NCBI RefSeq assembly: GCF_000284315.1
Contig: NC_017094.1
Span: 2,201,486 to 2,265,485, forward strand
Source of the DNA: Leptospirillum ferrooxidans C2-3
GTDB taxonomy: Bacteria; Nitrospirota; Leptospirillia; Leptospirillales; Leptospirillaceae
Reading direction: 5' to 3'
Length of the DNA: 64,000 bases
In this document: positions 27,802 through 39,084 of the stretch, piece after piece
Layout of the letters: each line of letters begins with the position of its first letter
How positions within the stretch are numbered: position 1 is the stretch's first letter
Program-made: the position numbers and the translations under genes
Notes under the pieces: model-generated
What the model was told of the DNA's origin: nothing
Seen by the model: only the letters and a program-made list of their open reading frames with translations
The model's database searches: none

Positions 27802-28383
27802 GTGTCCCAATATCGCGTAGCAGTTGGTCCTGAAGCATTTCTTCCCCCCTCCGCAGCCATGATGGGGATTTCTCTCCCCGACCCGGGTGAAGGGCATATT
27901 GAAGGTGTCCTTGTCCCAGAGATTCAGGCTATCGAAGAAGCTGCAAGAAGGCTTTCCAAAGCCAAGGTTCCGACCTTTTTCCCTGGTCCGCTCGTTCTTT
28001 GGAAGTGGAACGAAAAATCTGCAAAAATGGCCAAGGTCATCAAAAGGGCTTCTGTCGAAGGGGGCATCAACATCATCCCCATGACAGACTACCGCCCCAA
28101 ATATCCAAAGATTGATCCTGAAACAGAAATCAATCCCAACCATCCCAACCTCACCATATGGCACAACAAGATCGATGCGTGCCTGTTTGTTGGCGTCCAT
28201 TGCCACCAAGCCAACCTGGCTCTCAAGATCATTCGTGGCGGAACAGACTGTTTCACAATGGCCTTCTGTTCTTTTTCCGGACATGAGGATGCCAATCTGT
28301 CGGTAAGGGATACTTCCCCGGAAACGTTCGAGCTATTGACAGACTTTCTCATCAAAATGCGTTCCAACTCAAAAGGGTTTTAA
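27802..28383 (+). CDS. PorE/ForE-like (CO dehydrogenase beta/ACS epsilon family) protein, copy 1
   Basis: 193 residues. It resembles the small extra subunit of five-subunit pyruvate/2-oxoglutarate:ferredoxin oxidoreductases of Hydrogenobacter-type autotrophs, and the CO dehydrogenase epsilon-like fold to which these are assigned. Conserved-looking blocks: GPEAFLPPSAAMMG, FFPGPLVLWKWNEK, NPNHPNLTIWHNKIDACLFVGVHCHQANLALKIIRGG and GHEDANLSVRD. The start is GTG at 27802 after AAGGAGATCCT. No catalytic alpha/beta/gamma subunit genes lie nearby. The assignment is from memory of the family. Confidence 0.55.
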   Translation: MSQYRVAVGPEAFLPPSAAMMGISLPDPGEGHIEGVLVPEIQAIEEAARRLSKAKVPTFFPGPLVLWKWNEKSAKMAKVIKRASVEGGINIIPMTDYRPKYPKIDPETEINPNHPNLTIWHNKIDACLFVGVHCHQANLALKIIRGGTDCFTMAFCSFSGHEDANLSVRDTSPETFELLTDFLIKMRSNSKGF

Positions 28384-28453: not shown

Positions 28454-28571
28454 GGCGATAAGGCAGGGGATGCCGGGAGAAAAATCAGTTTTCCGGATCC
28501 ATTTGTATATGTAGCGGTTTATGGCCGCCAATATTCTTCTATCCAATCAACGTTTCACAAAAGGAGTGGAA

Positions 28572-29153
28572 GTGAATCCTTACAAAGTCATGAGGGGTCC
28601 GGAAGGATTCCTGCCCCCGGCAGCGGCATTGGCCGGAAACATACTCCCCGAGCCAGGATTTGGCCACATCGAAGGAAGAATCGTCAACGAGGACCAGGCT
28701 GTCGAAGAAGCTGCAAGAATGTTTGTCGGCGCAAAGGTTCCAACGATTTTCCCGGGTCCCCTTGTTCTCTGGGGATGGAACGAAAAAGCCATCAAGACTG
28801 CTGAGGCGGTCGAGCGTCTTTCCATCGCAGGTGGAATCAACATTATCCCGATGCCGGACTATCGCCCGAAATACCCGAAGATTGATCCAGAAGCAGAAAT
28901 CAACCCGAATCACCCCAACCTCACCATATGGCACAACAAAATCGATGTTTGCATGTTTATCGGTGTGCACTGCCATTATGCCAATCTTTCGCTCAAGATC
29001 ATTCGCGGCGGAACAGCCTGCTACACAATGGCATTCTGCGCAGAGGCAGGCCATGAAGATGCCAACCTCAGCGTCAGGGACATGTCTCCAACAAAGCTTG
29101 ACAAAGTGACCGAAATCGTCAAGAAGCTGAAAACGAATTCAAAAGGGTTTTGA
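28572..29153 (+). CDS. PorE/ForE-like protein, copy 2
   Basis: 193 residues, the same length as copy 1 and strongly similar throughout, notably NPNHPNLTIWHNKIDVC, IRGGTACYTMAFC and GHEDANLSVRDMSP. GTG at 28572 is chosen because AAAGGAG lies five bases upstream and it gives the same N-terminus (NPYKVMRGPEGFLPP) as copy 1; the frame is open for 17 codons before it. The two copies could serve two oxoacid:ferredoxin oxidoreductases (pyruvate and 2-oxoglutarate) encoded elsewhere. Confidence 0.55.
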   Translation: MNPYKVMRGPEGFLPPAAALAGNILPEPGFGHIEGRIVNEDQAVEEAARMFVGAKVPTIFPGPLVLWGWNEKAIKTAEAVERLSIAGGINIIPMPDYRPKYPKIDPEAEINPNHPNLTIWHNKIDVCMFIGVHCHYANLSLKIIRGGTACYTMAFCAEAGHEDANLSVRDMSPTKLDKVTEIVKKLKTNSKGF

Positions 29154-29198: not shown

Positions 29199-29710
29199 CA
29201 TTGGTTAAACCAATCGGGATCATCTCATCCATTCCTTCCGATTTGCACTCCGACGATTTCCCCCAATCTCTCTATGACCTGTTCGCACCGTAGTATAGCG
29301 GTATAACCCAGTCAATCTCCTGAAACAAAAACTGCAGCCGATACCACCCATAAGATTTTGAATTCCAACACATCAAGGTAAAGATCCCTCAATGGATCTC
29401 CTATCGGTGAGTGATGACAAAAAAACTCCCGTCTTACGCCTTCTGATAAACCGTTTAAGCCATTCTGAGCCGGAGCGAAAATATCCCTTGATCCACGGAT
29501 CAAAAAATCCGATTTCATGACTGTCACTGGCCTCCTTCAGACAAATGGAACATTGGAGACGCTTCCGCTTTGACAGACCCACCGGTCACTGGGATAATGG
29601 ACCATCGCTCCATCCCAGAAAATCAGATTCACTACCGGTTCCTGAACGAGCCCTCTTGAAGAAACGGATATTTCCATGACCTTGACCATCAATTTCGCTT
29701 CTTCTGCATC
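29199..29710. other. Intergenic region upstream of the Dab-type operon
   Basis: About 510 bases with no supported gene. The promoter of the four-gene carbon-uptake operon should be here. I saw no clear operator or riboswitch. Confidence 0.5.
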
Positions 29711-31432
29711 ATGACCAATCCGTTTGGAGTCCTTCCGATCATTCTTCTCCTGATCCCTCTTGTCCCTTTCCTGGGGGGAGCGGTCGTTTTTTTCCTCAAA
29801 AAAGACGAGAACATATCCTTCAGGCTTCTTTTTCCATTAGGTGCCCTGTCACTTCTAGGCTCCGTCATCATGGACGCGGCTTCCCCGTGGAATGGCCATC
29901 CCGTGAATTTCGTCCTCTTTCCGGATCCATTTTCAGAGATACCCGGCCCAGGAATCTCCATTTCCTGGGATCCTCTCTCCGGAATCCTGTCCATTTTCAT
30001 ACTCCTCGTGTTTCTCAACATTCTGACCTTCTCGCGTCGAACCATGTCGACCGAACCCTATGCCGGAGCGTTTTTATCCGCCCTCTCCCTGGCCACCGGA
30101 TCCCTCCTTCTTCTCGTGACAGCAAGGCACCTCTTGTTGATCTACCTTGCCTGGGAACTGGTCCTTCTCGCCTTGATTCTCCTCTTGATCCACCATCGCC
30201 ACAGATCACTCTCCGCAATGGGAGTGATCTCCACCTGGACCATGAACCAGCTTGGCGGGGGACTTCTGCTCTCGGGATTTCTTCTTGTCGGAAAGATGGC
30301 AGGAACCTTCGATCTCGACACCCTTTTCCGAAGACTCGATCCCCAACTGGGCCTCTTACAGGGAAGCCCCGGAGAGCTCATCCTCGCCTGCACGCTCATC
30401 TCCTGTGGACTCTGCATCAGATCCGTCCAGTTTCCATTTCACGGCTGGCTTTTAACAACACTCGACGCACCCACTCCCGTATCGGCCTTCATGCATGCCG
30501 GCATCGTCAATGCGGGAGGTTTTTTGCTGACCAGGCTCGCTCCGCTTTTCAATACAACGCCGATTGTTCTTGATGGACTGTTTCTTGTCGGAGCCACCAC
30601 AGCGGTCGCCGGATCGGCCATGATGCTCATTCAGGTCCGGGTCAAAAATACCCTGGTCTACTCCACCATCGGGCAAATGGGATACATGATCGCCGAATGC
30701 GGACTTGGTGTTTTTCCTGCCGCCATTTTCCACATGATCGCCCACGGGATTTTTAAAGGGACCCTTTTTCTAGGATCGGGAAGCATCATCCACGAGATCC
30801 GGGTCAACGAACACGAACCAAAGGGCGTCGTCCGAAAACTCTTCGGACGACATCACAAAGTCGGTATCCTTCTTCTTGGGATGATTGTCATTGTTCCCCT
30901 TGGCTGGCTCTGGTACCACATGATACGGGGCGGAGGGTTCCTACCTCAAAACGGGGCCTTCATCCTGATCATGTTTGGGGTTGCAACCGCCATCCAGACA
31001 GTTCTTTCCCTGACCAGATCCCGCCACCTGCTCACACCAAAATCCTTGGGAATCATGGCCGGAGCCCTCATCACCCTCGTGGGACTATATTGGGGATCCA
31101 TCCATCTTTTTGACCAGATGCTGGAAGTCGTGGTTGGAAAACCCTCTCCCGAGGAGGTGGACAACCGGTTGAGGTTCCTCGTTCCGGCGACCTTTACAAC
31201 CATGGCCTATATTCTTTTCCTTGGCGGAGGTCTTCTGATGAGGGAGGGAAAATCTTCCCCTGCTGTCTCACCGGCTCTTTTAAACAAAATTCACGGTCTT
31301 CTGGGAAGGGATCTCGGCGTCTCAACCTTTGCCCGTAGACTCATCACCGAGCCCCTGATGGCCATTGCCCGTACCATCAGGTCGCTTACGATCAAACCCG
31401 GAGACCTTTCCGTCAGGGATCGGGAACTTTGA
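29711..31432 (+). CDS. dabB: NuoL/Mrp-antiporter-like membrane subunit, DabB type
   Basis: 573 residues, 13-14 membrane helices, proton-pumping quinone oxidoreductase family. The core motif FPFHGWLLTTLDAPTPVSAFMHAGIVNAGG (about residues 240-269) with buried His/Lys/Glu positions is intact, as is STIGQMGYM. In DAB systems, DabB partners DabA and couples a cation gradient to CO2-to-bicarbonate trapping. It is followed by an overlapping second subunit and DabA, which separates it from a respiratory complex I operon. Confidence 0.85.
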   Translation: MTNPFGVLPIILLLIPLVPFLGGAVVFFLKKDENISFRLLFPLGALSLLGSVIMDAASPWNGHPVNFVLFPDPFSEIPGPGISISWDPLSGILSIFILLVFLNILTFSRRTMSTEPYAGAFLSALSLATGSLLLLVTARHLLLIYLAWELVLLALILLLIHHRHRSLSAMGVISTWTMNQLGGGLLLSGFLLVGKMAGTFDLDTLFRRLDPQLGLLQGSPGELILACTLISCGLCIRSVQFPFHGWLLTTLDAPTPVSAFMHAGIVNAGGFLLTRLAPLFNTTPIVLDGLFLVGATTAVAGSAMMLIQVRVKNTLVYSTIGQMGYMIAECGLGVFPAAIFHMIAHGIFKGTLFLGSGSIIHEIRVNEHEPKGVVRKLFGRHHKVGILLLGMIVIVPLGWLWYHMIRGGGFLPQNGAFILIMFGVATAIQTVLSLTRSRHLLTPKSLGIMAGALITLVGLYWGSIHLFDQMLEVVVGKPSPEEVDNRLRFLVPATFTTMAYILFLGGGLLMREGKSSPAVSPALLNKIHGLLGRDLGVSTFARRLITEPLMAIARTIRSLTIKPGDLSVRDREL

Positions 31433-32841
31433 TGAAAGACCCTTTACTCCTGACCATCCTGTTGCTCCTACCTATTTTTTCGATGGTGCTGAACTTCCTT
31501 TCCGGAAAAAAAGAGGATCCATTCAACCGGGAAAGCCATTCCCTGGCCCGTTTGTCAAAGCTCTGGCCAATGATTCTCTTTTCTCTTGTCGCCGCCGTTC
31601 TGGGAAAACAGCTTGAAGCGCCGCTGACATTTACAATTCTTGCATCGCTTCCTCTTCTTTTGTTTCTTCCGCTCGATGACACAATAGACCCTCTCCGAAA
31701 CACCCGAACGATCTCGTCACTTCTGACGATTTTCTTTGCGTCGGGCTTTCTGATCTCTCCCGACTCGCTCTGGGCAACCCTGTTTTGGGAAGGATTACTC
31801 ATATCCCTTCTCTTCTCCGGAACATTCGGGAGAATCACGAAGGTCGATGATAATTTTCGTACAAGCGGGGTTCCCTTCCCCCTTTTGATTTCCGCCCTTT
31901 TATTTCCGGCTTCCCAGTGGTTGTCGGGAACCCTTCCCGGACAACACATCCATGTTTCGCTTCTCTCTTTCACGACTGGAATCGTTGCACTCGGACTCTT
32001 TCTGCCTTCGGCCCCATTCATGAAATGGCTCCTTCTTTTCCCGGATGACAAACTGACGGCCAGAAGCTATTTCCAGCGGGTAGCGCTCACGCTGGTCGCG
32101 ACAGATGGCCTCATGAGATTCATCCTTCCCCAGCAGTCTCTTGCCGGCAGATCGTTTTTATTGTCCCATGGACACCTGACACTCTTGTCGATGCTTCTCG
32201 TGATATCGGCGCTTCTCGCCCAGATCCAGGGACTGGCTCTTGCCTTTAGTGAGCCGGTTCTCTTTCGCCGAGTGGCCTACCTGACATTCTCCCAGTCGAC
32301 ACTTCTTGCCACCGCCATCCTTCTTGGAGGCAGCCATCGGGAAACCATCCTGACCCTTCTGTCCGTATCGCTCATCTCATGCACTGTCACCATCGGCATG
32401 CCCCTGTTCCATATCGAGCTCCAAACCCGGCACAGGACCCTTTCAAGCCTTGGTGGCCTCCTGGTCAACATGCCCAGGACTGCGATCCTCATGGCTCTGG
32501 GAAGCATCGCCTTTTCAGGTTTTCCAGGATTTTCCCTCGCGGCGGCCTTTTCCTTTTTTGCTTTTGACAGGTGGGCGATTCCTTACCTTCTCCTCTCACT
32601 CTTTCTTGTAACGATCACCGGGATCCTTCTCGGCAGAACGCTCGGCAATCTTTTCCTTGGAGAGGAACCTAAAGCCTCTTACCGGCCAAGAGACTTGTCC
32701 CTGTGGTCTTTCTCCCTGGGGATCCTTCTACTGCTTCCGATCACCCTGCTGGCGTTCTACCCCCCAAGCTCCGGACACGGACTCTTTCACCGCCCAGGCT
32801 TCAATCAGTCCCTTTCCATAAAGACAGGATCTTCAAAATGA
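31432..32841 (+). CDS. Second, degenerate antiporter-like membrane subunit of the Dab locus
   Basis: 469 residues, about 12-13 membrane helices. The general layout resembles a NuoL/M/N subunit, but the motif equivalent to PFHGWLL...APTPVSAFMHAG is APFMKWLLLFPDDKLTARSYF: the aligned His and the PVSA...H block are missing, so proton-path residues are probably lost. It starts in a TGATG overlap with dabB and overlaps dabA by ATGA, so all three are coupled. It may be a structural partner in the membrane complex. Confidence 0.75.
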   Translation: MKDPLLLTILLLLPIFSMVLNFLSGKKEDPFNRESHSLARLSKLWPMILFSLVAAVLGKQLEAPLTFTILASLPLLLFLPLDDTIDPLRNTRTISSLLTIFFASGFLISPDSLWATLFWEGLLISLLFSGTFGRITKVDDNFRTSGVPFPLLISALLFPASQWLSGTLPGQHIHVSLLSFTTGIVALGLFLPSAPFMKWLLLFPDDKLTARSYFQRVALTLVATDGLMRFILPQQSLAGRSFLLSHGHLTLLSMLLVISALLAQIQGLALAFSEPVLFRRVAYLTFSQSTLLATAILLGGSHRETILTLLSVSLISCTVTIGMPLFHIELQTRHRTLSSLGGLLVNMPRTAILMALGSIAFSGFPGFSLAAAFSFFAFDRWAIPYLLLSLFLVTITGILLGRTLGNLFLGEEPKASYRPRDLSLWSFSLGILLLLPITLLAFYPPSSGHGLFHRPGFNQSLSIKTGSSK

Positions 32842-35800
32842 ACAATGCCCTGACACCTGCCAGCATCGAACTGAGGTCACGGATCCGTCTGGCACTCTCC
32901 ATGATCCCCACAGCCTGGCCGCTGGACGGTTTCATCCACCATAACCCCCTCCACGGACTGACCGACCTCCACTTCACGAAAGCCCTTTCACAGGGGGCCA
33001 CCCTGTTTGGGGGAGGCGTGTGGCCGACCCGCTCCTATCTGAGGGATCAGTTCAAAAAAGGATCCCTGACCCGCTCCGCCCTTCGAAAAACCCTTCTGGA
33101 GGCGAATGTCCTTCTGAAAAGCGAAAGCACTGATCCCGGAGTCGAACTCGATTCTCCAAACGACGCCGGGCTGCCTTCACTGACACTTTCCCGGATATTC
33201 ATGTCGGAGCTCCTTGTTGATCCGCCAACACCTGTGTTTTGGGAGAGGGACTGGGACCAATCCCTTCCCGGTGAAGAGACGGAAGACCCAGCATGGGATT
33301 CGATCATCGACGAGCTTTGTCAATCTGGAGAAGAACTCGGATTGCTCCAGGACAGAAAAGTGGTCAGGAAAAACGTTGCGGCGATTGCCCGAAAGGTCAG
33401 GGATCTCCATAAACTCCTCACCCCTCAAAGGAAGCTTTCCGGCAGCGCCTTTTTCCCTTTCACCTTCAAGGAGAGATCCCATGGAGGCCATCTCTTTTTC
33501 GAGGACGGACTGCAATCCGATCCCCTCCATCATCTGAACACCTTAATCGATGGCATCTCTCCCGATGAGTTCTCTATCGACCGGCTGAAACCCACTCCCC
33601 TTGAATGGCTTGACCGTCTTGCCGGCACATCCCTTGTCTCCCGTCTCGACAATGCGATGAGCGAGGCGGCAGCCCTGTTCATGGATAATGGACAGGCGTT
33701 CTGGACACTTCCCGACCGGGAGAAGGGATTCTTCTCCCTCTTTAAAACCCGATGGAGCGATCCTCTCCTCGCACCGGATCCAATCTCCTCATGCTCTTCG
33801 GGGCTCGCGTCCCTTCCCGACTCCCCCGAAGAGGCAATGCTCTGGGTTCTGAAAGAGATGGGCATTCCTTCCTCGGAATGGGTGGCCCTTTTCTATCGGG
33901 AGTTTTCCTTCCTTCCGGGTTGGTCCGGAACCATCCGCTGGATGTCCGAGTCCCACGAACACCGATCCTTCCCCCCCATCGACCCGACCGAATGGATCTC
34001 CCTCCGGCTCTGCACCGAATATTTTCTGGGGGAACCTGTAACACGGTCTCTCTGGAAAATTCCCTTTTCAAGGCCAGCGATTTCAGGGATTTGCAAAGAA
34101 CATCCGGAAGAGGCCGCCATTCGCCTCCTGGGACTCCATCCCGACCTTCCGCGAGGGGTTGTCCGAAAAATCGAGGAAGTGACCCTGGAGAGGCCTTTCC
34201 AAAGCGTATCGTTTGGTTACGAGGAGCTCTGGGAAGAGATCGTCTCCTCCCACCTGAGAAACCAGCCCTTTTTAGACCTGATCCTCTCCCTCTCCCGACT
34301 CTGGCTCTGGGAAGAAGGACGTCTTCCTGATCCTTCCGCACTCACCATCGAGCAACTGGCCTCCCTGATGAACGCGTTTTCCCGGATCCGAAGGGAGAAC
34401 CTTCCCCTCTGGGGGCTTATGGCCCTTGAGCATCATTACCGGCAAGAACTTCTGGGCCAGATCGGCAGCAAGCCCGAAAGCCGCTCCTCCACAGAAGGCT
34501 CTCCCCCCAAAAACCAGGTTCTCTTCTGTATCGACGTCCGGTCCGAATCTGTCAGAAGACATCTTGAAACACTGGGACCTTACGAAACACGTGGTGTTGC
34601 GGGATTTTTTGGTCTTCCCATCGCATTTCGGTCATTTGGTGCGATGATCTTCCACCGTCAGTCGCCCCCGACGATTTCTCCCAGGATTTTTCTGTGGGAG
34701 CTTCACCGTCCCTTTGCCGTGCGATCGATGCGCAGCTTTTTTCAGGGACGAAGGATCTGGCGATGGCTGAACCATCTTCTCCACGAACTGAAAAACAATG
34801 TGGTGACGCCTTATGTTCTGGTCGAGGCAATCGGCTGGATATCGGGAGTTCCTTTCTTTGGAAGAACCCTTTTCCCGAGGCGGTACGGAGAACTCTCCGA
34901 GACCGTTGCCGCATCCGTCCTGCCAGAGGTGCCCACGATGGTTCCGCTGGACAAGATTTCGGAAAAGGAAGCCCGGGAAATCGTCGAACAGGAGCAACGC
35001 CAAACCATCCGGCAGGTCGTCGCCGAGAAATACAGCCAACGGAATCTTCCCAGAATCCCCGGACGGGCGGTCGAGGAATTCCGGTTTCTGATCCTCTCCA
35101 CCGATCATGAAAAAGAAAATCCCCAAACCAGCCTCGCGAAACTGATCGGACTCTCCCCCAAAGAGGAAGAAGCCCTGATCCGCGATTTGCGGGAAATTCA
35201 CCATCTGACACCCCGGATGGCGGCCAACAGGATCGAGGAGCTCGCGCGCGTGGGACTCACCCCGAACGAACAGGCCAATCTTGCCGAAACGGTTCTCACC
35301 GTCTCGGGACTTCGTCACAACCTGGGACGGCTCGTGCTTTTTCTTGGCCACCGAAGCCGGTCAGAAAACAATCCTTTTGAATCGGCCCTCGACTGCGGCG
35401 CCTGCGGAGGTCGAGACGGAAGCCCCAACGCACGGGTCTCGGCGGGACTTCTGAACCGTCCCGCCGTTCGGGAAATCCTCCAGAAAAGATCGATACACAT
35501 TCCATCGGACACCTTTTTCATGGCCGGTGTCCATGAAACCACGACAGACCGCTTCTTCTTCTATGATCAGGAGGACTGGCCAGAAAGCCATCTCCCGGAA
35601 ATCGGCGTCCTGATCAAGGACCTCCGTACGGCAGGAACACTGTCGGCGATGGAGCGGCAAACCACATTTCCCGACTCTTCTCCACAATCACCGAACATGT
35701 CACAGTCCTCTCTTGTCAAACGGGCCCACGACTGGGCAGAGGTCCGGCCGGAATGGGGACTTTCCGGAAACGCGGCCCTCGTGATCGGGAATCGCTCCCT

Positions 35801-36299
35801 CACATCAGGACGGAATCTCTCAAACCGTGTGTTTCTCCAGGAGTACAACCATTCCGACGACCCCCGGGGGAAATGGCTCGAGACACTCCTTTCCGGACCC
35901 ATGGTGGTCGCATGGTGGATCAATCTCGAACATTACTTTTCTTCCGTCGACCCCAGAGTCTGGGGCTCCGGAAGCAAGGTTTCCCATAATGTGACCGGCA
36001 GGCTGGGTGTCGTGGTTGGACATGAAGGGGACCTGAGGTTTGGACTTCCACGACAGACTGTGATGGACAAGAACAGAAAACTCAGACATGAGCCGCTCAG
36101 GCTCCTCGTCATTGTTGAAACCACAAGGGAGAGGATGGAATCCGCCCTTCTGGCCTCCCTGTCCATCCGGAAGATTTTCGATCTGGAGTGGGCAACCCTT
36201 GTTGTCAAGGAGCCGGAACAGCCAGGTTTCTGGCGATATGAAGCGGGAGGAGCCTGGATTCCAGAAGAGGCTCAAACACCAATCGCCTTTCGAATATAA
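32838..36299 (+). CDS. dabA: DabA / DUF2309 carbonic-anhydrase-like subunit of a bicarbonate-accumulating complex
   Basis: 1153 residues. DabA is a zinc protein resembling beta-carbonic anhydrase that hydrates CO2 vectorially with DabB. All four residues known from Halothiobacillus DabA (C351, D353, H524, C539) have counterparts here: C564 and D566 in LFCIDVRSE, H838 in LGHRSRSENNPF, and C853 in ALDCGACGGRDG; the H-to-C spacing of 15 is the same. The N-terminus and the middle are longer, so this is a large variant. The start ATG at 32838 overlaps the upstream stop; an open frame extends further up but lies inside that gene. Confidence 0.9.
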   Translation: MNNALTPASIELRSRIRLALSMIPTAWPLDGFIHHNPLHGLTDLHFTKALSQGATLFGGGVWPTRSYLRDQFKKGSLTRSALRKTLLEANVLLKSESTDPGVELDSPNDAGLPSLTLSRIFMSELLVDPPTPVFWERDWDQSLPGEETEDPAWDSIIDELCQSGEELGLLQDRKVVRKNVAAIARKVRDLHKLLTPQRKLSGSAFFPFTFKERSHGGHLFFEDGLQSDPLHHLNTLIDGISPDEFSIDRLKPTPLEWLDRLAGTSLVSRLDNAMSEAAALFMDNGQAFWTLPDREKGFFSLFKTRWSDPLLAPDPISSCSSGLASLPDSPEEAMLWVLKEMGIPSSEWVALFYREFSFLPGWSGTIRWMSESHEHRSFPPIDPTEWISLRLCTEYFLGEPVTRSLWKIPFSRPAISGICKEHPEEAAIRLLGLHPDLPRGVVRKIEEVTLERPFQSVSFGYEELWEEIVSSHLRNQPFLDLILSLSRLWLWEEGRLPDPSALTIEQLASLMNAFSRIRRENLPLWGLMALEHHYRQELLGQIGSKPESRSSTEGSPPKNQVLFCIDVRSESVRRHLETLGPYETRGVAGFFGLPIAFRSFGAMIFHRQSPPTISPRIFLWELHRPFAVRSMRSFFQGRRIWRWLNHLLHELKNNVVTPYVLVEAIGWISGVPFFGRTLFPRRYGELSETVAASVLPEVPTMVPLDKISEKEAREIVEQEQRQTIRQVVAEKYSQRNLPRIPGRAVEEFRFLILSTDHEKENPQTSLAKLIGLSPKEEEALIRDLREIHHLTPRMAANRIEELARVGLTPNEQANLAETVLTVSGLRHNLGRLVLFLGHRSRSENNPFESALDCGACGGRDGSPNARVSAGLLNRPAVREILQKRSIHIPSDTFFMAGVHETTTDRFFFYDQEDWPESHLPEIGVLIKDLRTAGTLSAMERQTTFPDSSPQSPNMSQSSLVKRAHDWAEVRPEWGLSGNAALVIGNRSLTSGRNLSNRVFLQEYNHSDDPRGKWLETLLSGPMVVAWWINLEHYFSSVDPRVWGSGSKVSHNVTGRLGVVVGHEGDLRFGLPRQTVMDKNRKLRHEPLRLLVIVETTRERMESALLASLSIRKIFDLEWATLVVKEPEQPGFWRYEAGGAWIPEEAQTPIAFRI

Positions 36300-36320
36300 A
36301 CCTACAAAAAAGAGGATCCA

Positions 36321-36662
36321 ATGGCAGGACTGAAGCTTTATTCCGTCAAAAAAGTGGAAATCATCACCGCAGGGGAACACCTTCCCTTTCTCAGGGAACT
36401 CCTCGACGATGTCAAGGTGTCCGGCTACACCATCATTCCCGATGTCTCGGGAAAGGGCCACAGCGGCTTCCATGAAGCGCAGCTCATGTTCAACGACATG
36501 AACATTCTGGTCATGGTCATTACCGTTGTCCCCGAATCCTGGGTCGAGACGATCCTCTCGGGGCTCTCGCCTCTTTTTGAGCGTTACTCCGGGGTGGTCT
36601 TTGTATCGGATGTCCAGGTCAGCAGGAGGGAGTATTTCGGGGGGACAGGCCAGACGACCTGA
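36321..36662 (+). CDS. PII-like signalling protein of the Dab locus
   Basis: 113 residues with the PII/GlnB ferredoxin-like fold: KLYSVKKVEIITAGEHLPFLRELLDDVKVSGYTI, a short T-loop region (PDVSGKGHSGFHEAQ), and VVFVSDVQVSRREYF at the end. The canonical uridylylated Tyr is not evident. PII-like proteins are found near carbon-uptake genes (CPII, SbtB) and sense carbon or nucleotide status; regulation of this Dab complex is inferred from position, 21 bases after dabA with AGAGGAT. Confidence 0.8.
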   Translation: MAGLKLYSVKKVEIITAGEHLPFLRELLDDVKVSGYTIIPDVSGKGHSGFHEAQLMFNDMNILVMVITVVPESWVETILSGLSPLFERYSGVVFVSDVQVSRREYFGGTGQTT

Positions 36663-38139: not shown

Positions 38140-38434
38140 AAAACCTCCATTCAGAAAACAGCCCTCAACCAGTCAAGAGGATCCCGGGGAAAGAGTCTTT
38201 CCGGAGAGATCCACCGGAGAATCCCCATTCAAAACAACATGCATTCTCTCACAGCTTGCCGGCTTCCCGCCAGATCCCCCAAACGCTCCAGAAGAGAGAT
38301 CCTTACCTCAAAAACGTAAAGAGCCAATCTCCATCGAGAATGACCGGAAATAAAAGCTTTTACGATACAGAACGACACTGGAAGGTCAATAACCGGATTT
38401 GCGGATTATCGGATATTCCGTTATTCTGATCTCT

Positions 38435-38680
38435 ATGGACACGATCGCTCAAATCGGAACTCGCGGGCAAGTCACTTTGCCAGCATCCGCCAGAAAACAG
38501 TTGGGGCTCAAATCGGGAGACACCCTCCTTGTGCATGTCGAGGATGGCCGGATCGTTCTTGATCCGGCCGTTGTCCTGCCGGTGGAGATTTATACGGAAA
38601 AACGCATCGCTGAATTTGCAGAACAGTCGACAATGACAACGGAAGAATTGGAAAAAGCGCGGCGTTATTGGGAACAGTAA
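38435..38680 (+). CDS. AbrB/MazE-type antitoxin (VapB-like)
   Basis: 81 residues. The swapped-hairpin DNA-binding domain is clear (IGTRGQVTLPASARKQLGLKSGDTLLV); a C-terminal helical tail should bind the toxin. The next gene, a PIN protein, starts before this stop codon, the usual toxin-antitoxin arrangement. No clear ribosome-binding site; ATG at 38435 fits the family N-terminus. Confidence 0.85.
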   Translation: MDTIAQIGTRGQVTLPASARKQLGLKSGDTLLVHVEDGRIVLDPAVVLPVEIYTEKRIAEFAEQSTMTTEELEKARRYWEQ

Positions 38681-39084
38681 GAAAGGTTGTTATTGTTTTT
38701 CTGGATGCAAACATACTGTTTTCAGCCGCCCTTGGCGGTGAATCATTTTCCCTGCTGTGGGATTTGGCACAGCAGGGGAAAATCATCCTGCTCAGCAGTC
38801 CCTACTGCATGATAGAAGCCCGTCGCAATATCGAAAGAAAGAGACCGCAAGCGCTGAGCAATTTCGAAGAAAAGCTCTCTGGTGTCCATTCCGTTGTTTC
38901 CAGAATCACCATGAACTTTCAGTCTGACTTGAACGATAAGGACAGACCGGTGTTCGATGATGCGATAGCAGCAGGTGTGGACGTGCTGCTGACCGGTGAT
39001 GTCCGTCACTTTGGATTACTGAGGAAGCGCTCGGACCTCCCTTTACGCGTGATGAGCTTAAGGACATTTCTTCTCCACGAGTGA
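38668..39084 (+). CDS. PIN-domain ribonuclease toxin (VapC-like)
   Basis: 138 residues. PIN acidic residues appear in VFLDANILFSAA, near the middle (E in YCMIEARRNIE), and in DRPVFDDAIAAGVDVLLTGDVRHF, consistent with a Mg2+-dependent RNase of the COG2405/COG1569-like PIN group. The only available start is TTG at 38668, overlapping the antitoxin by 13 bases. The gene appears intact. Confidence 0.8.
   Translation: MGTVRKVVIVFLDANILFSAALGGESFSLLWDLAQQGKIILLSSPYCMIEARRNIERKRPQALSNFEEKLSGVHSVVSRITMNFQSDLNDKDRPVFDDAIAAGVDVLLTGDVRHFGLLRKRSDLPLRVMSLRTFLLHE

Follow-up and report, generated by a model that had tools for sequence, protein, structure and literature searches.

A degenerate NuoM-like protein encoded between dabB and dabA in a Leptospirillum operon resembling the DAB1 class

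The closest described systems are the two DAB complexes of Halothiobacillus neapolitanus. Structures have been determined only for the two-subunit DAB2 (PDB 9rd0, 9rd8, 9rd9; PMC13144422), in which DabA is compact (870 aa). DAB1 consists of three subunits, DabA1 (Hneap_0907), DabB1 (Hneap_0909) and the membrane protein Hneap_0908, which PMC13144422, the only open-access paper found to mention it, terms small and hypothetical; operons of the nuoL-ybcC-PII type were catalogued in 2017 (PMC5700660). The premise of the first-pass annotation, that a DAB complex comprises only DabA and one DabB, is thus outdated, and the three-component complex that it proposed corresponds to a known type, since the DAB1 of H. 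neapolitanus has already been described in these terms.

The operon described here lies in a 64,000-nucleotide stretch, the window, of a complete Nitrospirota genome of 2,559,538 bases that belongs to the iron oxidizer Leptospirillum. Three dabA genes are present in this genome: the window carries a long one, and compact ones occur in two dabB-dabA pairs elsewhere (L025, L026). The long dabA belongs to a series of four + strand genes (Table 1) that are as tightly packed as first annotated: dabB and the second gene, here called X, share a single base (TGATG), X and dabA overlap by four (ATGA), and a gap of 21 bp separates dabA from a gene for a PII-like protein. An in-frame TTG at 31429 offers an alternative start for X, yielding a protein of 470 aa. 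The promoter-like site preceding dabB has 11 of 12 consensus matches and an extended TG, yet is suggestive only, as the region contains two such sites where chance alone would yield 2.7. Just upstream of the operon are two paralogues in tandem that belong to the CO dehydrogenase beta/ACS epsilon family (PF02552; window 27802-28383 and 28521-29153), and a gene pair encoding a MazE-type antitoxin and a PIN-domain protein (38399-39084) is also found nearby.

Table 1. Features of the dab operon, in window coordinates
Feature	Position	Strand	Description
Promoter-like site, TTGACA-17-(TG)GATAAT	29570-29598	+	112 bp upstream of dabB; consensus scan
dabB	29711-31432	+	NuoL-like membrane subunit, 573 aa; PF00361, 156 bits
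X, third subunit	31432-32841	+	469 aa from ATG at 31432; nearly full-length degenerate NuoM/MrpD-like
dabA, long type	32838-36299	+	1153 aa; PF10070, 772 bits
PII-like gene, CPII type	36321-36662	+	113 aa; PF00543, 81 bits

The window layout, with a long DabA, three subunits and the gene order dabB, middle gene, dabA, PII, is that of H. neapolitanus DAB1, as seen in a metagenome-assembled genome labelled with that species (L079) and in other Proteobacteria. The window DabA also shares the catalytic features of DAB2 (PMC13144422). The four key residues recognized in the 1153-residue protein during annotation, C564, D566, H838 and C853, correspond to C351, D353, H524 and C539 of DAB2 and are unchanged in all eight aligned DabA sequences. 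C564, H838 and C853 make up the zinc site, and D566 forms the Asp-Arg dyad with R568 (R355 in DAB2), which is likewise invariant. E663 and L975, the counterparts of the finger Glu444 and Leu658, occupy invariant columns as well, and the profile match to DabA2 (9rd0_A) has an E-value of 1e-84. Unlike the compact DabA of DAB2, the window protein contains extra segments, including about 95 residues past the finger helix. However, the earlier description of it as oversized does not hold, as this is an ordinary size within the long (DAB1) clade, where most members have about 970-1135 residues and where a length of roughly 1000 residues or more characterizes the long type.

DabB was compared in an alignment with NuoL, NuoM, NuoN and 20 other DabB proteins. 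The seven proton-path residues mutated in DAB2 in the course of a cryo-EM and mutagenesis study (PMC13144422), S256, H260, K310, S316, H339, H343 and K347, all have counterparts in the window protein (S258, H262, K312, S318, H341, H345 and K349), which agrees with its annotation as an intact NuoL/DabB-like subunit. The match to DabB2 (9rd0_B) has a profile E-value of 4e-107. At the positions of the regulatory ion pairs the window DabB differs from DabB2 (PMC13144422): it has the Glu that is Ile151 in DabB2, but Arg in place of Lys235 and Gly in place of Asp185. Set against NuoL and DAB1, it keeps the counterpart of NuoL E144 (E149), replaces K229 with Arg (R237) and has Gly in place of D178. 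The DabA active-site and DabB proton-path residues mutated in DAB2 are all present, and the designation as a Dab-type operon stands.

X lacks nearly all of the residues with which a subunit of this kind conducts protons. In a residue alignment with the genome's own NuoM, the lysines of TM7, TM8 and TM9, the His of TM10 and the Glu of TM12 are all gone, and there is no PTPVSA..H block, as the first-pass annotation of a degenerate antiporter-type protein had indicated. The sole survivor among the conducting residues (TM5 Glu, TM7/TM8 Lys, TM10 His, TM12 Glu) is the TM5 Glu, which is also kept in two of five X relatives. On account of these losses we rejected the idea that X is a working antiporter. 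Its antiporter-like character is upheld by profiles and by relatives, but not by Pfam itself, which gives no PF00361 match for the window protein; two relatives, at 29.9 and 37.2 bits, exceed the cut-off of 21.5. A profile of X matches NuoM and NdhD chains in the PDB (E 4e-10 to 8e-10), mostly across the C-terminal 270 residues.

Five other Leptospirillaceae have a homologue of X that separates dabB from dabA, and the gene occupies this place in all Leptospirillaceae operons of this type. It is 65% identical to that of the congener, compared with 83-88% for its neighbours. The corresponding dN (0.24) and dS (1.18) give a ratio of about 0.2, while the ratios for DabB and DabA are 0.06 and 0.09. 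Judged by these substitution rates, X is under purifying selection and is the product of neither chance nor decay, which rules out a pseudogene. An oddity restricted to Leptospirillum is also ruled out, by the middle-gene counterparts found in other groups. In the sister genus the same position is taken by more diverged proteins of 440-470 aa with 10-12 TM, for which comparison with X and NuoM reached only E 0.03 in hhalign, too weak for a statistical link, and no PDB match was obtained.

For the type-strain protein Hneap_0908 we used as stand-ins the 250-aa middle protein of L079 and its relatives. The AlphaFold model of the L079 protein is of high confidence (pLDDT 94.2, pTM 0.91), and its best Foldseek matches in the PDB are ND4, NuoM, NdhD and MrpD chains, with TM-scores over the query mostly of 0.75-0.88 (about 0.85) and 13-22% identity. 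Against the C-terminal half of ND4, NuoM and MrpD, the query TM-score reaches 0.88 with an rmsd of about 2.4 A. NCBIfam places a relative on positions 275-466 of the 486 in its NuoM model (E 1e-4), and in a joint alignment the DAB1 middle protein begins at the start of NuoM TM7. The half-length proteins have no TM1-6, and they have lost the conduction residues as well. Trp, Pro and Arg positions are conserved among the middle proteins. Together, the predicted structure and the alignments show the proteobacterial DAB1 middle protein to be the C-terminal half of a subunit of the NuoM/ND4/MrpD type.

The profiles also connect X with these proteins. In hhalign, X matches the DAB1 middle proteins with an E-value of 7e-7 and the middle domains fused to DabB with 1e-9, and the DAB1 middle proteins match the C-terminal domains of the fused DabB proteins with 4e-16. 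At the level of profiles X is thereby shown to be a homologue of the Hneap_0908-type proteins. The AlphaFold model of X itself is poor (pLDDT 62, pTM 0.57; loose PDB matches, TM about 0.45), so the argument from fold is based on the DAB1 protein of 250 aa together with the sequence profiles. From the profile, structure and alignment matches it follows that X is a nearly complete subunit of the NuoM type and the DAB1 protein half of one; at 469 aa, X has the N-terminal antiporter half that the DAB1 protein of about 250 aa lacks. Both share fold and sequence with the NuoM, ND4 and MrpD subunits of complex I and Mrp antiporters, but they are without the conducting residues, and each is one of two membrane subunits beside a carbonic-anhydrase-like partner. 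Within the DAB1 class, a degenerate third subunit of nearly full length constitutes a variant. A search of the open-access literature, with the original DAB papers outside its range, found no paper that names the third DAB subunit an antiporter relic. The new part appears to be the identity of the third subunit, the three-subunit complex itself being already known.

We examined the distribution of the middle gene by using the long DabA to scan named genomes, which gave 80 loci; a gene-first survey covered Nitrospirota only. Proteobacteria and Nitrospirota share the arrangement in which dabB is followed by a middle gene, a long dabA and PII. In Proteobacteria, dabB encodes about 560 aa, the middle protein has 240-300 aa and is predicted to contain 4-9 TM segments, and a dabA of about 1040 aa and the PII gene follow. 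In a tree of 116 DabA sequences, built with a quick method and containing several long branches, the long type forms one clade of 93 rows (SH-aLRT 100) apart from 23 compact sequences. The congener (L027), whose DabA is 83% identical to that of the window, falls inside the long clade with a support of 100. A hand count found a middle protein or a DabB-middle fusion at 75 of the 93 long-DabA loci, including four Chromatiaceae with a split dabA. All 23 compact dabA genes directly follow dabB, and none has a middle gene. The expectation that X is co-conserved with DabA is thus borne out for the long type, and almost all of the long-DabA branches sampled have X or a counterpart, either as a gene separating dabB from dabA or as part of a fusion with dabB. 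Among the remaining long loci, dabA directly follows dabB in 14 (13 from Nitrospira and one from Thiothrix), is the second copy of a tandem in three and is truncated by the end of a contig in one. Because of the 13 Nitrospira loci, the third subunit is not obligatory for a long DabA. Fusions of DabB with the middle protein (783-913 aa) were found in Aquificaceae, on one Myxococcota contig and in several Nitrospirota, and represent at least two separate lineages (Aquificaceae; Myxococcota/Nitrospirota).

Several of these loci have unusual arrangements. Nitrospira does not simply lack the subunit: in Nitrospira moscoviensis (L033:2615-12270), dabB is followed by a middle gene of 380 aa and then by a tandem pair of dabA genes, and at two further Nitrospira loci a middle-type protein is encoded nearby on the opposite strand (see also L164 and L166). 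Four Chromatiaceae (L057, L063, L078, L099) carry dabA1 as frames of 170-270 and 900-920 aa after an intact middle gene, either a conserved split or a frameshift. In four Nitrospirota loci (L177:4075-15070, L178:3624-14840, L179:3257-14055, L181:4152-14857) the long dabA precedes what appears to be a whole Mrp-type set, with small membrane genes that resemble those of Mrp in size and order, together with MrpD-like, NuoL-like and intact NuoM-like genes (the last scoring over 500 bits to NuoM), and in two of them a large membrane transporter gene lies upstream. These four loci appear to correspond to 'clade C' of PMC5700660, although they contain more antiporter genes than that study reported.

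The locus most likely encodes a CO2-hydration complex of the DAB1 class that accumulates dissolved inorganic carbon, is driven by the proton motive force and has a non-conducting NuoM-like partner beside DabB, with tuning of the CPII type. CO2 uptake is ascribed to it by homology to DAB2. Protons moving inward through DabB would drive the one-way hydration of CO2 to bicarbonate by DabA, a predicted beta-carbonic-anhydrase-like zinc enzyme whose finger helix would insert into DabB. X, as a subunit of the NuoM/MrpD type that no longer conducts protons, would sit against DabB as NuoM sits against NuoL and would most likely stabilize or tune it. This docking and the scaffolding or tuning role are inferred; that DabB and the middle protein belong together is suggested by their fusion in Aquificaceae and in a Myxococcota/Nitrospirota lineage.

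The PII-like protein that had been annotated in the operon is confirmed by its Pfam match, and its best PDB match is 5d4n (E 1e-28, residues 2-103). It is 97% identical in the congener. By sequence it thus resembles CPII, the carboxysome-associated PII-like protein; however, CPII goes with carboxysomes, whereas the window gene belongs to an organism assigned to the reductive TCA cycle. CPII (5d4n) is presented as bicarbonate-regulated in the title of Wheatley et al. 2016, a study cited in PMC6458275. As its closest match is to this protein, the PII-like protein may throttle the complex, and it probably adjusts it to bicarbonate or adenylate levels.

A broader reading, which we hold tentatively and at somewhat less than even odds, is that every DAB1-class complex has a relic NuoM as its third subunit. 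A membrane pair resembling NuoL and NuoM would have stood at the origin of the long-DabA lineage, and its NuoM partner would have lost its ion path and shrunk stepwise while remaining necessary to brace or govern DabB. The steps would be represented by the full-length relic in Leptospirillum and the half in Proteobacteria, with fusion to DabB or loss elsewhere.

Alternatively, X might serve the substrate side, as part of a path for CO2 entry or bicarbonate exit, or might anchor the PII-like protein, rather than being a structural partner of DabB. X co-occurs with PII-containing operons, the conserved Trp, Pro and Arg of the middle proteins could be read in this way, and the cyanobacterial PII-like protein SbtB binds the transporter SbtA, according to the title of PMC8352866. 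We nevertheless regard such a role as unlikely: Nitrospira dabB-dabA operons that lack the middle gene are also followed by PII, DAB2 works without any third subunit (PMC13144422), and the fusions join the middle protein to DabB, not to DabA or PII.

It is less likely still that X acts as an ion channel or antiporter in its own right and provides a second path for protons or sodium, with more ions moved per CO2. An increase in membrane subunits for the sake of more ions was proposed from COGNAT (PMC5700660), X is nearly of NuoM length with its TM5 Glu in place, and the four Nitrospirota loci with an Mrp-type set include an intact NuoM. However, the other conducting positions of X are gone, the TM5 Glu is found in a minority of its relatives, and the half-length DAB1 proteins have dispensed with TM1-6 altogether. 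That X stands outside the complex, as a membrane protein that is either unrelated or in decay, as its faster evolution and the missing Pfam match might suggest, is very improbable and largely refuted by its conservation, given the low dN/dS, the overlapping genes, the constant position in related operons, the fusions to DabB in separate lineages and the homology to NuoM.

The compact pairs bear on a different published system. The 'och' chromate-resistance operon of Leptospirillum CF-1 contains a DUF2309 protein beside a NuoL gene (PMC9080137). L026:6809-11025 and L120 relate to this operon, and a beta-carbonic-anhydrase-like gene lies near the former (L026:14778-15356). The published 'och' RT-PCR primers match the DAB loci of the window genome poorly; one of them matches L120 with one mismatch. 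Because a DUF2309/NuoL pair is a compact DabA-DabB, the redox reading of 'och' deserves a second look.

Efforts to engineer CO2 uptake in crops and microbes have DAB complexes among their candidates. Recognition of the third subunit as half or the whole of a complex I-type subunit would provide it with a fold and a testable role, would point to the side of DabB as its likely docking site, and would tie the DAB family more closely to complex I and the Mrp antiporters.
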